The notes beneath the pieces were generated by a model. The model was not told where the DNA came from. It saw only the letters and a list, made by a program, of their open reading frames with translations, and did no database searches. Below, piece by piece: positions 1-7,193 of a DNA stretch of 64,000 nucleotides. Numbering within the stretch: the stretch's first letter is position 1; each line of letters starts with the position of its first letter. Source of the DNA: Roseovarius sp. Pro17 (GTDB lineage Bacteria > Pseudomonadota > Alphaproteobacteria > Rhodobacterales > Rhodobacteraceae); contig NZ_CP141179.1 in the NCBI RefSeq assembly GCF_035599575.1, positions 2,976,001-3,040,000 of the forward strand. Direction: 5' to 3'. A program made the translations under genes and the position numbers.

Positions 1-66
1 GCGCTCTATTTCCTGCTATGTTTTGGGTTGTCCATGCTGTTCAGACGGCTTGAGCGCAGGCTGTAA
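1..66 (+). CDS. Amino-acid ABC transporter permease, C-terminal end (partial)
   Basis: Only the last 21 codons and the TAA stop (64-66) are in the window. They encode a hydrophobic stretch (ALYFLLCFGLSMLF) followed by a basic tail ending RRLERRL. A final transmembrane helix followed by R-x-LERRL is typical of the C-terminus of HisM/GlnP-type polar amino-acid ABC permeases, which form the membrane channel for a periplasmic binding-protein system. The call is inferred from this short tail alone. The rest of the gene lies to the left of the window. Confidence 0.55.
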   Translation, partial: ALYFLLCFGLSMLFRRLERRL

Positions 67-315
67 TCGTTCCGACCGTGCCGGCGGACGTCGACGCGCC
101 AACCGCCCTCGGCCGGTTTGCCCAAAGTGATCCGGCTGTCAAACGCGATGGCGGGACCCAGCGCCGCCCGTGATGAGGCTGCGCCCACTTTCGCCGCTTG
201 TGTCAGGTCGCCAACGGAAACTCCAACAAGCGACCATTTGACATCTCTTTCCCAATCCGCCGATCCTAGAGATTCGGCAAACTGGTACGCGCGTCACCCG
301 AGAGGGCCAACGGCA

Positions 316-3300
316 TTATGAATATTGCCTCGTCAGGCTGCCCACCTGTTTTTTCGGTGCGAATTCCCGCGAGGTGTGTCCATAAATTCCGACAACCTTC
401 TGCTTGTCATTGATTGCCCCAGAAAGCGCCGGGAACAACTCGATCAATTCATTCCGTGGCGCTGCATTCATCATCTGCAGGGCCATCGGTCCGGGATAGA
501 AACTCTCTGATGGTGTGCTTTCAGACAGAACGATCTGATGCGCGTCGAACAGCAGGTGGATGTAGGTGACGGCACGTTTGCCATGCGCGATACGCACTCC
601 GGGCATATTCTTGACCAGGTGTTTTGCACGTACCAGGCGATCCCCGCCGCGACCGACCAGCAAGCCATGTTGAGGCGATACCAGAAAATCGCGCTCTGCC
701 CCCAACACGCCCCGGCGTATCAAAATTGGACGCAAGTGGGGGTGGGCCTGCAAAGTGGCCCGGCCCAGTTTTCGCTGTCCGATCCAGCGGATGCGTTGCG
801 GCCCATTGTCGAGGGTTGTAACCAAATCGCCGACCCGCAATTCATCAATCAGGACATCGCCGCGAGGGGTTCGAATGGCCGTACCAGAGGTAAAGCAAAC
901 CACACCGGTGTTTTCCTGAGTAAAGCTGGAATTGTCACCTGACGCGCCCGAAAAGGTCAGGGACCCTGCGCCAAACCGGTCGTTGTCGGAATAATCGGTT
1001 GCCCGACCCTTGGTGTTGGTTTTGTTCGACTGATTGAGGACGCCGTCATCGTTCTGATCGGCCCATAATTCAGACAGGGAGTCATAATGTCCGCTCAGGT
1101 CAATTGCATCGTTGTTGGTGGCATCCCCGTCGGTCAGCGTGCCGGAATTGCCAATGTTGAAATCGGTAATTGTGTCATTGCCACCACTGACAAGAAAGAC
1201 ATCGTTGCCCTGTCCACCTTCGAGGGTGTCGTCACCACCGCCCCCATCGAGGATGTCATTGCCCTCGCCGCCCTTGATCAGGTCATTGCCGTCGCCACCC
1301 GACACGGTGTCGTTGCCATGGCCACCATAGACTTCGTCATCTCCGGCCCCGCCGTCGAGAACATCGTGCCCTGCCTGGCCGTCGACATAGTCGTTGCCAG
1401 CACCGCCTGTCGCTGTGTCGTTACCATCGCCGGTATAAATGACGTCCCAGTCATCTCCTCCATCAATGGAATCGTCACCACCACCGCCATAGATTTGATC
1501 GTCGCCGGCACCGCCGATGATCGTGTTGTCGCCGCCATCGCTTGAAATGTAATCTGCGCCCGCGCCTGCGTCGATATGATCGCCGCCTGAACCGGTATAG
1601 ATGGTATCGTTTCCATCCCCAGCCTCAATATCCAGCCCCGCAGTATCGGCTGTGCCGTCGACACTGTCGTTGCCGTCGGTCAGGATCAGCCTCTCGATCT
1701 GGGAGAATGTGATCGTATCGGTGCCATCAGAGATCGTCCCGGCCTCATCGCCGGTATAGGTGATCGTGACGGGCCCCGTTAGCTGGCTGAGGTCGATCGT
1801 GTCGTAATCAATGCCGCCCTCGCCGCCGATGATCGTGTCGTTGCCAGAACCTTGGGTAACGAGAAAGGTATCAGCATCGTCGCCACCATCGAGTAGCTCG
1901 TCACCGGTCCATGACTGGAGCGTGTCGTTACCCGCGCCACCAAGCAGCGTGTCATTGCCCGTCCAGCCCTGCAGCGAGTCGTTCCCGGCACCGCCCATAA
2001 CGAGATCCGCATCGCTGCCACCCAGAAGAGTGTCATTGCCAGCGCCGCCGTCGATTGTATCGGTCCCGGCCCAACTGTCGATGAAATCGTCGCCGTCCCC
2101 ACCCGAGATGCTGTCGTCGCCAAAGGTGCCGTAGGCCGTGTCATCGCCGGCGCCAAGATCGATAACGGCGCCAGTTCTATCAGCCCGGCCATCAACGAAA
2201 TCGGCTTGGTCGGTTGTGATGATATGTTCGATCTGGGAGAATGTCGTGGTGTCGCTGCGGTGGTTGACCGTGCCGGCCTCATCCCCTGAATACGTGACCG
2301 TGACAGGCCCCGAAAGTTGGCTGAGGTCCAGCGTGTCATGGTCACTGCCGCCTTCGCCACCGACGACGGTATCGTTGCCGCCCCCATCCGAAACGCGGAT
2401 CACATCGCTGCCATCGCCGCCCGCGACGTAATCGTCACCCAATCCGCCATCCATTGTGTCGTCGCCGCCGACTGTGGCCTCGGTCACGCTTGCAGGATCG
2501 TCGAAGTAGAAGTCGGTAAGGCTAACTCTCCATCCGTCGATACTAGTGTAGTCCATTTCGATCCGGGCGACGGGACCGGGTATCTGGATCAGAAGAGAGC
2601 CTTGCTCGTGATGGTCATCATACTCCCCGCCCAGCCCTTCGAACGTATCGGGACCAGGGGTCGCGTCTGAATCGACGCCGCCGACGTTCGACCCCAATGT
2701 TGCGTCAAACTGGATCTGATTGCCATCAATGCCATAGGCCCGGATGACGAGGTGTTCGTTAGCAGCGTCGAAATTGTTGACCCTGAAATGCACATTCTCG
2801 ACCGCTTCCGAGAATGCGACTTTGACTTGACCGGTGTTGCGCAGGCTCAACGCGCTGTTGTCGTTAAGCACATCGTCGCCGTGATCTATTCCGTCGGCGT
2901 GCTGGGTGGCGTTTTCAAACCTCCCGACGCCGTTCGAGATGCCGTAGGAGACATCGACGCCGTTGACCGACTGAGTGCCGGATGTGATCCTGTCGCTGTC
3001 GTCGATCTGACCGCCATTGTCGGGGTCCGGGATATCGTCCCATCTAAGCGCGACCCTGTCAGCCGACCGGTCAGCGCCATCGCCGCCATAGAGCGTGTCG
3101 TTGCCATCGCCGCCATAGATTTCGTCGTTGCCGCCGCTGCCGTCGACAGTATCGTCGCCAGCGCCGCCCCACAGAATGTCGTCATCACCCGTGCCCCTGA
3201 TGTGGTTGTTGGCGTCCGGGTCGTAGGTTTGGCTGTGGATCGATTTATATGACGGCTCATTCGACGGCGTGACGTTCGACGTTGCATAGGTATAGGTGTT

Positions 3301-3651
3301 GCCGGGTTGCAACGGACCATCGGCAACAAAGCCAACGGACGTCCCATTGATCTGGATCTCGTAGAGATTGATCGTCTGGCCGTATTCGTCAGTGATCGTG
3401 CGAACAGCTTCGAGATAGCTTTTACCGCTGGCGACAATATTTCCGGCGCCGTCACGCACGGTTGTCGTCTGTTGAGTGGAATCGTCGGAAGTTGCATTGA
3501 CCGAAGAGTCGCCAGACCATGTCGCGTCGTCGTCCGTAATCTCAAAAGTGTAGGCCGTCGCGGAATCGTAGGTCGGATCAACGCGCCCGCGTGACCCGGC
3601 AAGTCCGGTGAAGTCGGTGAGCGTGAAGCCTGTGAAATTGTACGTTGCCAT
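316..3651 (-). CDS. RTX calcium-binding protein with C-terminal Hint domain
   Basis: A 1111-residue acidic protein. The start is ATG at 3651, with AGGA about eight bases upstream; an in-frame TTG at 3669 is less likely. There is no Sec signal peptide. Several blocks of glycine-aspartate nonapeptides (for example GGDGNDTLYGG) match RTX repeats, which bind calcium and fold as a parallel beta roll outside the cell. A non-RTX segment (around residues 270-390, with FDAANEHLVIRAYG) resembles a beta-sandwich surface domain. From Cys919 (CFTSGTAIRTPRG) to about residue 1060 runs a Hint_2-type (Hedgehog/intein) domain with the conserved SPQHGLLV segment; such domains can be autocatalytic, but splicing is not shown here. 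Such proteins are generally exported by type I secretion, and no ABC exporter genes are nearby. Function is otherwise unknown. It is transcribed divergently from the sheath gene. Confidence 0.85.
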   Translation of the reverse strand: MATYNFTGFTLTDFTGLAGSRGRVDPTYDSATAYTFEITDDDATWSGDSSVNATSDDSTQQTTTVRDGAGNIVASGKSYLEAVRTITDEYGQTINLYEIQINGTSVGFVADGPLQPGNTYTYATSNVTPSNEPSYKSIHSQTYDPDANNHIRGTGDDDILWGGAGDDTVDGSGGNDEIYGGDGNDTLYGGDGADRSADRVALRWDDIPDPDNGGQIDDSDRITSGTQSVNGVDVSYGISNGVGRFENATQHADGIDHGDDVLNDNSALSLRNTGQVKVAFSEAVENVHFRVNNFDAANEHLVIRAYGIDGNQIQFDATLGSNVGGVDSDATPGPDTFEGLGGEYDDHHEQGSLLIQIPGPVARIEMDYTSIDGWRVSLTDFYFDDPASVTEATVGGDDTMDGGLGDDYVAGGDGSDVIRVSDGGGNDTVVGGEGGSDHDTLDLSQLSGPVTVTYSGDEAGTVNHRSDTTTFSQIEHIITTDQADFVDGRADRTGAVIDLGAGDDTAYGTFGDDSISGGDGDDFIDSWAGTDTIDGGAGNDTLLGGSDADLVMGGAGNDSLQGWTGNDTLLGGAGNDTLQSWTGDELLDGGDDADTFLVTQGSGNDTIIGGEGGIDYDTIDLSQLTGPVTITYTGDEAGTISDGTDTITFSQIERLILTDGNDSVDGTADTAGLDIEAGDGNDTIYTGSGGDHIDAGAGADYISSDGGDNTIIGGAGDDQIYGGGGDDSIDGGDDWDVIYTGDGNDTATGGAGNDYVDGQAGHDVLDGGAGDDEVYGGHGNDTVSGGDGNDLIKGGEGNDILDGGGGDDTLEGGQGNDVFLVSGGNDTITDFNIGNSGTLTDGDATNNDAIDLSGHYDSLSELWADQNDDGVLNQSNKTNTKGRATDYSDNDRFGAGSLTFSGASGDNSSFTQENTGVVCFTSGTAIRTPRGDVLIDELRVGDLVTTLDNGPQRIRWIGQRKLGRATLQAHPHLRPILIRRGVLGAERDFLVSPQHGLLVGRGGDRLVRAKHLVKNMPGVRIAHGKRAVTYIHLLFDAHQIVLSESTPSESFYPGPMALQMMNAAPRNELIELFPALSGAINDKQKVVGIYGHTSREFAPKKQVGSLTRQYS

Positions 3652-4401
3652 CGGTCGATCCTGCTGCAATGAGTGCCGCCCGATCCAGCAGGCAGCCCAA
3701 CGCAGAATTTACGATGCAATGGTAAAGGATCATTTTTGATGAGCCGCGTCACGGCGGGTATTTTACTTAAAATTCGCCTTGATTGATCACCAGTTTGATT
3801 GGGCACGACGGCAAATGTGCGCTTGCATCCGGCTGGCGAGCCCTGTGGGGTCGCAAGATTGCTCTATGTAGATTCACGGCTGCGCCAAAGTCATTTGGCG
3901 CTGGGCGTTTGAACGACCCTTACGCGTCCATAGGCCCACCCTTCGCGCTTGCGGATATCGCAGGCGGGACGTCGGCCATGATCGCTACCGTCATAATGTC
4001 GAATCCACGGTGCGGAACCTGATCGCAGTTGGGGTGATCGGTATTTGCAGGGGGGGGCTGTCGGGGCATATTCCGCACCCGTCCGCCTGCTGTTTAGGAA
4101 TGTGGGATCGCGTGTAAATTCGAAGGAAAGAATGTGAATTTTAACAGAATGTGATACCGTCCAGATCAAACAGAACATTTCAGATCTGGCTAACTTGTGG
4201 GCCGCGAACGTGTCTCTAAACGGGGGGGATATCCGAAAATGTTTCGCATATCCTTGTTTTGTCTTGATTGATCTGGCGTTGATCCACCGGTCCGCAAACC
4301 GGGGCATGAATTGATACCCAAGGTCGTGTCCCCGTGGCCTATACCGGGCTTCTTGGTCTGGGCGTGTTGCATACCGCAATTTTGTAGGGAGGACCGTATA
4401 C
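3652..4401. other. Intergenic region with two poly-G tracts
   Basis: A 750-base gap between the divergent RTX/Hint and tail-sheath genes. No convincing coding frame was found. It must carry both promoters, but no clear -35/-10 pair stands out. It contains a run of eight G at 4050-4057 and seven G at 4222-4228, and its AT content is higher than that of the flanking genes. The sheath ribosome-binding site AGGGAGGA is at 4386-4393. Confidence 0.6.
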
Positions 4402-6336
4402 ATGACCATCAAAACCCCCGGTGTTTACGTCGTCGAGAAAAGCGCATTTCCCAATTCGATCGTTCAGGTGGCCACGGCGATCCCGGCCTTTATCGGCTAT
4501 ACCGAAGAGGCGATGAACGGCAACTCGTCGCTGGCGGGCGCGCCCACACGACTAACCTCAATGGCAGAGTTTCACAGCCACTTCGGCTTCTCGTCGAAGC
4601 CGATGTTCAAGATCGTGCCATTCGCGGAACGCACCGGCCCCTCGCCGCTAAGCATCGCAGGTGCGGAAATAGCGCCGGAACTACCGCAGACGGTTTTCTC
4701 GACCAATGGACCGCGCGGCGAGGAAAAATTCGAGTTGGTGCAGATCAATCCAGCCTATGCGCTTTATGGCGCAATGCGGCTGTTTTTCCAGAATGGTGGC
4801 GGCGCATGCTATGTGACGTCCATAGGCTCTTTTAAGGATGAAATCGCCGCCAACCCGATGATCGACGCGCTGACCCGGCTAGAGAAAGAACCGGAGCCGA
4901 CGATAATCGTGATCCCCGATGTCATCCGCCTGTCGCATGATGAAGCGACAAAGGTGCAGCAGCTGACGTTAAAACATTGCGGCAGCGATATGAAGAATCG
5001 GTTTGCCATCCTCGACATTCCCGGCGGCTATCAGGCGCAGGATGGACCGCGAGGGCAGCCCGTGGCGCGGTTCCGTGACGCGATTGGCACGCGCGATCTG
5101 GACTATGGCGCCGCCTATTATCCGTGGCTGAACAGCTCGATTTACGCCGCGCGGGACTTCGACTTTCAGAATATCGAGTTCGACAGTCGAAAGAGCATGG
5201 TGTCCCTTCTGAATCGCTCGGTGCAACAGGACGCCAGTATCGTGCCAGAGATCGAGCGTGTCGGCGCGTCGGTTCTGCGGGGCGATTTCACATTGTCAAT
5301 GACGTCGGGCCAGACTGTCGTGGTGACGCAAGACGATATCTCGGCCGAGGGTGAGAGCACTACCGAGAACCCCTTGAGATTTCGCATCGTCGGCAACGCC
5401 GACAAGATGACCGGCAAGCTGGTCAGAACCGGCACCGAGGATATCGTGTCCGAATTCACGCAAGACGAGCTGAAAGAGGGCAAGATCAGCTTCGTGCATG
5501 ATCCTGCGGGCGGCACGGACATACAGGGCGAGTTCGGCGTCATCGCTGTCGATGCCAATGGCATCGAAACCGCCATGCGCAAGGTGACGGTGACCACCGC
5601 CAAAGGCGCCCCAGAACCGCAGGAGGTCAAGGTGCCGATCGACGAGGTCGAAGGCCCCAACCCGTCAGAGGATCCGTCAACCAAGAGTATCGACAAGGCC
5701 ATGCGCGCCGCAGTCCCGCTATATGTCGAGATCATGAACGCTATCACTGCCTATATGAACACGATGCCACCCTCGGCGGCTATGGCGGGGATCTATACTG
5801 CAATCGACAATAGTCGCGGCGTGTGGAAGGCACCGGCCAATGTGTCGCTCAGCTCAGTGGTTTCGCCGACGGTCGTTATCAACCATGAGGAGCAAGAGAA
5901 TCTCAACGTCTCGATCACGGGCAAATCGATCAACGCGATCCGGCCCTTTGTGGGCCAGGGGACACTGGTTTGGGGCGCGCGCACGCTGAACGGCAACAGC
6001 CTGGATTGGCGCTATATCAATGTGCGACGCACAATGATCATGCTGGAGGAATCCATCAGGCTGGCCTCCAAGGCCTATGTATTTGAGCCCAATACAGCGA
6101 CTACGTGGGTCACCCTGCGTTCAATGATCGAGAATTTCCTCACGAACATCTGGAAACAGGGCGGGCTTGCCGGCTCGGTGTCTGCGGATGCCTTTAGCGT
6201 CCATGTGGGTTTGGGCGACACCATGACCCCCGTCGACATTCTGGATGGCATATTGCGGATCAGCGTTCTGGTTGCCGTCGTACGTCCCGCAGAGTTCATC
6301 GAGTTCACATTCGAGCAAGAGATGCAGAAATCCTAA
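4402..6336 (+). CDS. Orphan contractile-tail sheath protein with inserted CSPG-like domain
   Basis: 644 residues; ATG at 4402 is preceded by a strong AGGGAGGA site. The N-terminus (TPGVYVVEKSAFPNSI, then TAIPAFIGYT) is the classic opening of phage and extracellular contractile-injection tail sheaths. The C-terminal third (GQGTLVWGARTL, DWRYINVRRTMIMLEESI, then FIEFTFEQE at the end) is the conserved sheath core that packs on the inner tube. Between them, residues about 295-400 carry a beta-rich insert (VVVTQDDISAEGE, FTQDELKEGKISFVHD, then FGVIAVDANG). Its spacing resembles the CSPG/cadherin-3 repeat of surface adhesins, an inference from pattern. Variable inserts on the outer face are known in sheaths. 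No tube, baseplate, LysM, ATPase or capsid gene is nearby, so it is an orphan. It could be a relic, a component of a split locus, or a repurposed surface polymer. Confidence 0.85.
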   Translation: MTIKTPGVYVVEKSAFPNSIVQVATAIPAFIGYTEEAMNGNSSLAGAPTRLTSMAEFHSHFGFSSKPMFKIVPFAERTGPSPLSIAGAEIAPELPQTVFSTNGPRGEEKFELVQINPAYALYGAMRLFFQNGGGACYVTSIGSFKDEIAANPMIDALTRLEKEPEPTIIVIPDVIRLSHDEATKVQQLTLKHCGSDMKNRFAILDIPGGYQAQDGPRGQPVARFRDAIGTRDLDYGAAYYPWLNSSIYAARDFDFQNIEFDSRKSMVSLLNRSVQQDASIVPEIERVGASVLRGDFTLSMTSGQTVVVTQDDISAEGESTTENPLRFRIVGNADKMTGKLVRTGTEDIVSEFTQDELKEGKISFVHDPAGGTDIQGEFGVIAVDANGIETAMRKVTVTTAKGAPEPQEVKVPIDEVEGPNPSEDPSTKSIDKAMRAAVPLYVEIMNAITAYMNTMPPSAAMAGIYTAIDNSRGVWKAPANVSLSSVVSPTVVINHEEQENLNVSITGKSINAIRPFVGQGTLVWGARTLNGNSLDWRYINVRRTMIMLEESIRLASKAYVFEPNTATTWVTLRSMIENFLTNIWKQGGLAGSVSADAFSVHVGLGDTMTPVDILDGILRISVLVAVVRPAEFIEFTFEQEMQKS

Positions 6337-6737
6337 ATCTCACGGAAGAATCAGAGACATGGCAGATGGTGGTTTCGCCCGAACGCAGACGATCTGGCCA
6401 AAAGCGTGAACGCTGGCAGCTTCGCTTGCCCCTCGCGTCCTTTGCATATCAAACGACTGCCGGGCGGTGGTCGGACCTGCCATTTACGGCATTTATAACG
6501 CATCAAACTGAATGATTGGTGATCCGCGCTATTTCCGCGTTTTGTTGCATGCAGCCCAGTTCTTCGTGCTGTAACACCGCGGGATAAGTTCACTGATCCC
6601 GGCTGGAATTCCAGCGCGAATCCCTGCGACTAGCTATTTGTGCAGCAAAGCAGGTCTTTTTTTACTGCATCGCCATAATTCAGGTTGGCAATACACCTGC
6701 CGAAGGCACGGAAAAATTCACTGAATTTCTATATTCT
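6337..6737. other. Intergenic region, no gene seen
   Basis: About 400 bases between the convergent sheath and universal stress genes. There is a 14-base palindrome (GCTGGAATTCCAGC, 6602-6615) and a T7 run near 6657-6663 that could belong to a weak terminator. No coding frame has a plausible start or composition. Confidence 0.5.
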
Positions 6738-7193
6738 TCAGGTGATCATCTCGAGCCGTTCCTTGCTCAGGTCGCCCGGCACGATGGTGATGGGAATGGG
6801 CAGGCTGCCAGCCGTGCGCGTTAGTTGGCTGACCAGCGGGCCGGGTCCCTTGCGATCATCCGATGCACCCAGCACCAGCACGCCAACATCGGGGTCATCC
6901 GCAATTTGCGCGATGATCTCGGCCACAGGCTCGCCCTCGCGAATGACCAGTTCGGGATCGACGCCCTGCTTGTCACGCATCCATTTGGCAAAGACCTGGA
7001 AATGCGCCTCGATCCTCTCGCGTTGCTCCTCTCGCATGATGTCGCCGACGCCGATCCAGTGGTTGAACTCTTCGGGCGGGATAATCGACAGGACGGTGAC
7101 TCCGCCCTTGGTACGGGCGGCGCGCATCGCGGCGAAACGCATCGCGTTCAAGCACTCGCGGCTGTCATCCAGAACGACCATGAATTTGCGCAT
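6738..7193 (-). CDS. Universal stress protein (UspA family)
   Basis: 151 residues, the usual size of a single-domain Usp. The N-terminus MRKFMVVLDDSRECLNAMRFA is the first beta strand and helix of the Rossmann-like fold. The C-terminal part (VLVLGASDDRKGPGPLVSQL, then PIPITIVPG) occupies the place of the nucleotide-binding G-x2-G-x9-G(S/T) loop but is degenerate, so ATP binding is uncertain. The family is cytoplasmic and induced under stress or anaerobiosis, with few defined biochemical roles. It lies 55 bases downstream of the M3 peptidase on the same strand and may be read from the same transcript. No FNR-type box was seen directly upstream. Confidence 0.85.
   Translation of the reverse strand: MRKFMVVLDDSRECLNAMRFAAMRAARTKGGVTVLSIIPPEEFNHWIGVGDIMREEQRERIEAHFQVFAKWMRDKQGVDPELVIREGEPVAEIIAQIADDPDVGVLVLGASDDRKGPGPLVSQLTRTAGSLPIPITIVPGDLSKERLEMIT

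Follow-up and report, generated by a model that had tools for sequence, protein, structure and literature searches.

Sheath proteins have been studied as the moving parts of needles, and a bacterium that keeps the sleeve without the needle, a state shared by several of its relatives, raises the question of what role such a sleeve could have. The case considered here lies in a window of 64,000 nucleotides from Roseovarius sp. Pro17 (the whole stretch of DNA that was analysed), in which an earlier note, based on the letters alone, had described a full-length tail sheath standing alone, bearing an adhesin-like insert and lying opposite an RTX/Hint protein. If sheath-only genes are maintained, then sheath polymers are useful by themselves, and a filament of phage-tail origin has gone unrecognised in some bacteria. 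The question is directly testable, because several separate cases occur in one family together with empty sites and CIS-bearing sisters; and even if the window copy represents decay only, a 14-codon relic beside it still documents the loss of a CIS operon. Among the papers that the literature searches listed, none describes a stand-alone sheath gene in its title or the opening of its abstract, and the phrase "orphan sheath" is absent from the papers listed by one of these searches.

A sheath gene that outlived its operon

The features of the locus are as follows (positions within the window; evidence in brackets).

316..3669, minus strand: neighbouring gene encoding RTX repeats and a Hint domain, 1117 aa; not thought to be part of the feature (ORF, Pfam)
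4387..4392, plus strand: Shine-Dalgarno-like GGGAGG, 9 nt 5' of the sheath ATG (read from the sequence)
4402..6336, plus strand: sheath gene of CIS type, 644 aa, intact ORF (ORF translation, Pfam, alignments)
4402..5253, plus strand: N-terminal part of the sheath, residues 1-284 (alignment to the 9r9h, AlgoCIS and Anabaena sheaths)
5254..5616, plus strand: insert, residues 285-405, modelled alone; the Cadherin_3 match covers residues 297-380 (Pfam, model, fold search)
5677..6318, plus strand: C-terminal part of the sheath, residues 426-639, Phage_sheath_1 and Phage_sheath_1C (Pfam)
6359..6409, plus strand: relic of a CIS tube gene, 14 matching codons followed by two codons and a stop (tblastn, blastn)
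6738..7193, minus strand: neighbouring gene, 151 aa, at which the synteny common to the genus begins; outside the feature (synteny)

The 644-residue product matches both PF04984 and PF17482 above the cut-off, which identifies it as a CIS contractile sheath. It aligns with the 9r9h sheath (519 aa) over its full length, in two pieces, and the halves of 9r9h and of AlgoCIS Alg2 (7adz) align with it over both arms (544 and 332 bits). Passages of PMC8894135 describe how the termini of AlgoCIS subunits interlock in a handshake and how an attachment helix binds the tube. In the sheath alignment the N- and C-terminal arms of the window protein retain 23/26 and 21/23 invariant positions, and its two C-terminal helices 17/17 and 12/12; the arms thus look conserved in the way expected of a CIS contractile sheath whose arms interlock subunits. 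Overall, most positions invariant in cluster-borne sheaths (counted on 12 cluster-borne genes) are retained. Changes affect 22 of 256 invariant columns, compared with six in P0003, so the window copy is the faster-evolving of the two by this measure; in five cluster-borne sheaths, 0-9 of about 260 such columns are changed. The nearest protein among the matches listed, P0002, is 84% identical and also 644 aa long.

Immediately downstream, positions 6359-6400 encode MADGGFARTQTIWP, the start of a tube gene (an example is MADDGSAQTQAIWP). Identity to tube starts is 64-71% at the protein level (tblastn E 0.045-0.09) and 79-86% at the DNA level with 10 of the 12 tube-bearing loci searched (blastn, best E 3e-8), and the similarity stops after codon 14. 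The relic begins 22 nt from the sheath stop, the usual distance (13-29 nt in 12 clusters). Because this truncated tube start lies directly 3' of its stop, the sheath gene is, on the evidence of sequence, the remnant of a CIS operon. Searches of the flanks with tblastn and blastn revealed no CIS remnant besides the tube start, and a search for the upstream cluster genes DUFa and DUFb in the window and 15 kb upstream of it brought no further CIS gene to light in the region. The objection that other tail genes might lie close by, raised in the earlier note itself, is therefore half right: a truncated tube start is present, and nothing else was found. In L011 a match of 47 residues (E 3e-5) pairs a cluster-flanking gene with a transporter-like protein.

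A decayed prophage was considered as the source of the gene and rejected, as its close kin are CIS sheaths and the one tail gene that turned up close to it is the relic of a CIS-type tube. Of 83 phage records, the ten best are matches of 26-31% that cover no more than 41% of the query; all 83 stay below 60%, as do all 121 plasmid records that match the sheath. Viral contigs gave no match with P0001 as the query. With an alignment as the query, 78 loci in IMG/VR (L148-L225) encode relatives of the sheath, with best segments of up to 51%; some of these are possibly CIS clusters that were classified as viral.

Synteny with the genus begins at about 6713-6738, and in eight relatives nothing equivalent to window positions 1-6712 adjoins the shared downstream genes. 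This segment represents a synteny break or an island containing both the RTX/Hint gene and the sheath. The RTX/Hint neighbour, which the earlier note had pointed out, looks incidental, since its protein has no match in the stretches around the other seven lone sheaths. Farther off, the RTX/Hint protein has two partial matches, in L069 and L071.

Search for the rest of the machine

The window genome (4.24 Mb in two contigs, 99.9% complete) contains one sheath match. A profile built from 14 tubes and run on 14 genomes had no match in it at E<=1, so the inner tube of a complete CIS was not found; the same profile matched in 7/7 CIS-bearing control genomes, and it detects even second tubes about 30% identical to the first. 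It likewise found nothing at E<=1 in G021, G022, G015, G175 and G467, genomes with lone sheaths, and a single lone tube in G066. The Pfam tube model had no match in the window genome and none in any control either. Single-protein queries, run without a control genome, gave no match for baseplate-J and one partial match for the spike (E 0.045). The observation of a full-length sheath that stands alone, with no other intact CIS gene nearby, is confirmed, and the missing tube contradicts the suggestion that the locus encodes an injection device.

The tube gene of G066 (L066 9961-10386; G066:C14:40455-40886) is 54% identical to L005 tube 2. Nothing else in its 20-kb stretch matches a CIS reference, which makes this gene the mirror case of a lone sheath.

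The insert and its distribution

The insert matches Cadherin_3 (PF16184) above the Pfam cut-off, placing one CSPG-type repeat between the sheath halves, and the best fold matches of the modelled insert are the CSPG4 entries 7ml7_B and 7n8x_B. Profile and fold thus agree with the original proposal of a CSPG/cadherin-3 repeat; the window protein has one such repeat, inside a sheath, and its use as an adhesin is putative. The repeat sits where the alignments to the AlgoCIS and Anabaena sheaths also break. The 9r9h sheath has no long insert and the AlgoCIS insert does not align with that of the window, both structures having been solved as parts of assemblies; passages of PMC8894135 report that the AlgoCIS sheath likewise has extra domains, III and IV, that extend outwards.

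As an unusual feature, however, the insert did not hold up. The same domain is ordinary in sheaths of CIS clusters, where a second Ig-like domain usually follows, and a unique adhesin fusion is ruled out by the presence of PF16184 in 67 of 120 listed homologs, query included (from 6800 proteins at E<=1e-60). CIS sheaths from Rhodobacterales (Rhodovulum, Yoonia, Loktanella, Roseobacter; L002-L009) show 48-54% best-segment identity to the window sheath and carry a Cadherin_3 insert at the same place. These sheaths lie in CIS clusters and most have a second domain (CshA_repeat/Big_9), whereas the window sheath has lost its cluster and lacks that domain.

Among loci whose neighbourhood was read, sheaths with a two-domain insert (at least 221 residues, compared with 140-147 for one domain, or a protein of 724-781 aa in the order sample) adjoin CIS tube genes in 21/21 distinct cases. 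This total comprises eight loci (L002-L009), G001, G459 and G086, and ten from the order sample, where four of 14 two-domain loci are equal to L002, L007, L008 and L009. The G459 cluster is broken, and the stretches read around the L006 and G086 sheaths showed no baseplate-J gene. Sheaths with Cadherin_3 only are lone in 5/5 cases (G000, which is the window genome, G021, G022, G066 and the lone one of G077), which represent three sites and hence are not five independent cases. Such an insert is missing from the lone sheaths of G015, G175 and G467. P0002 also lacks the second domain, which P0003-P0005 of the same clade have; this suggests, without proving it, that the reduced state of the insert predates the split of the window sheath from P0002.

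Lone sheaths in relatives

The sheath had matches at E<=1e-5 in 13/84 genomes of the genus sample; in six of these the match is confined to the C-terminal part. Among the remaining seven, lone sheaths occur in G000, G021, G022, G015 and G066; G001 carries a cluster, and G077 both a cluster and a lone sheath. Tube searches in C-terminal-only genomes found a tube adjoining the match in G004 and none in G006; the G006 match (G006:C1:483885-484475), for which one tube query came up empty, is possibly a lone sheath of another type. The family sample yielded matches at E<=1e-50 in 11/395 genomes, eight with clusters and three (G000, G175, G467) with lone sheaths. In the order sample there were 24 matches among 390 genomes, seven already known and 17 new; 16 of the new ones have clusters and one has tubes only (G516, L270, with two tubes being all that was seen near its sheath).

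Besides that of the window, seven lone sheaths thus occur at four other sites, two of which are common to two or three genomes: site A (G021, G022, G015) and site B (G066, G077), with the remaining two sites in G175 and G467. Site A is flanked by what we take to be IalB-like and DUF4139-like genes, and site B lies behind a presumed pyruvate-kinase-like gene. Of 30 loci read for site A, three contain the sheath and seven have the flanking genes adjacent with the sheath absent (the other 20 have no DUF4139-like gene within reach), which makes the insertion of about one gene the best interpretation of site A. Because all three site-A genomes have it in this place, the lone gene was probably present in their common ancestor.

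The lone sheaths at sites A and B are under purifying selection, weaker than that on flanking genes or on a cluster-borne pair. At site A, dN/dS values are 0.144/0.818 (G021/G022), 0.084/0.307 (G022/G015) and 0.161/0.786 (G021/G015), and at site B 0.369/1.729 (NG86), giving ratios of about 0.18-0.27 for lone sheaths in relatives compared with about 0.04-0.11 for flanking genes and 0.03 for the closest cluster-borne pair.

In a tree of 36 rows, with the insert left out, G000 groups with P0002 in a clade that also contains two-domain proteins; site A falls elsewhere, and site B has long branches. Constraining G000/P0002 and site A to lie together costs 80 log-likelihood units (AU p ~1e-79, for a group chosen after the first tree), and one origin for the window lineage and site A is rejected on that test. 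The machine seems to have been lost, with the sheath surviving, more than once.

Decay or a retained sleeve

The reading of the window gene that we favour, with confidence a little short of even, is that of a sheath-only gene left by operon loss and possibly kept as a self-assembling polymer without a tube. The intact CIS sheath gene has outlived its own operon, and its product, lacking a tube, would not inject. If the protein is expressed, the most probable outcome is self-assembly in the cytoplasm: a sheath polymer with no tube inside, in which each subunit carries one CSPG repeat that, by analogy with AlgoCIS, would point outwards. The model for such assembly is a phage sheath protein made by itself: as described in PMC6357053, FV3 gp053 alone self-assembles without other viral proteins into tubes about 28 nm wide. 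This polysheath, like the product of the window gene, is a sheath protein without a tube; it is, however, a recombinant phage protein, whereas the window has a native lone bacterial gene whose assembly we infer. The purifying selection on sheath-only genes at two sites in relatives suggests that having a sheath gene alone can be of use and is not necessarily decay, and the keeping of other sheath-only genes in relatives strengthens the reading of a repurposed sheath.

For the window's own copy, a fresh and functionless relic, in which loss of the CIS operon is recent and the sheath gene still unbroken, is nearly as likely and has a substantial claim. Counted against the polymer are the uniqueness of the site to this genome among the 30 loci read, the 22/256 changed invariant columns, the higher dN/dS of lone sheaths compared with flanking genes and the closest cluster-borne pair, and the want of a shared partner gene, none having been recognised at the lone-sheath sites. 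Fresh decay would also fit a tube relic that is still recognisable, a copy that changes faster than P0003, and the observation that decay elsewhere can spare the sheath: the G459 cluster (L056 11429-12605) has an internal gap, the tube 2 end, the LysM gene and the spike start being missing, and its sheath is whole. However, the lone sheaths at sites A and B have persisted long enough to diverge under purifying selection, and P0002 has the same reduced insert, hinting at an older state. Further, 3/8 invariant residues are lost in the tube relic compared with 22/256 in the sheath (Fisher p 0.03, on few positions, their number lowered by a shifted tube start in G086, one of the 12 reference genes).

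Use of the sheath in trans, by a CIS with its tube and baseplate encoded elsewhere or diverged beyond recognition, is unlikely. The genome of G077 does contain a full CIS besides its lone sheath, and that of G066 a tube away from its lone sheath, but the window genome yielded no tube to a profile sensitive enough for second tubes, and its baseplate-J and spike queries ended in the empty and partial results given above. Least probable is a surface or secreted adhesive protein displaying its CSPG repeat outside the cell: the insert is of CSPG/cadherin type and adhesion is one role proposed for Ig-like sheath domains of phages in passages of PMC9230969, but the N-terminus has no signal-like hydrophobic stretch by eye, no export route was identified, the module is ordinary in cluster-borne sheaths, and three lone sheaths do without it.

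Returning to the self-assembling polymer, a wider form of this reading is that sheath-only genes are a recurrent, selectively kept CIS derivative in Rhodobacterales, in which the needle was discarded and the sleeve domesticated as a self-assembling and possibly still contractile polymer, maybe with outward CSPG repeats. We consider it possible, though less likely than not; the window gene would be a young and traceable case of it, with the tube relic recording its origin.

Two further loci bear mention. In G415, two sheath-like pieces (L063 8843-9421 and 10938-11657, minus strand) adjoin one CIS cluster. In G021, an open frame of 2062 aa (L032 73-6261, plus strand) lies a few genes from the lone sheath, and its product has no match in the G022 stretch (L033).
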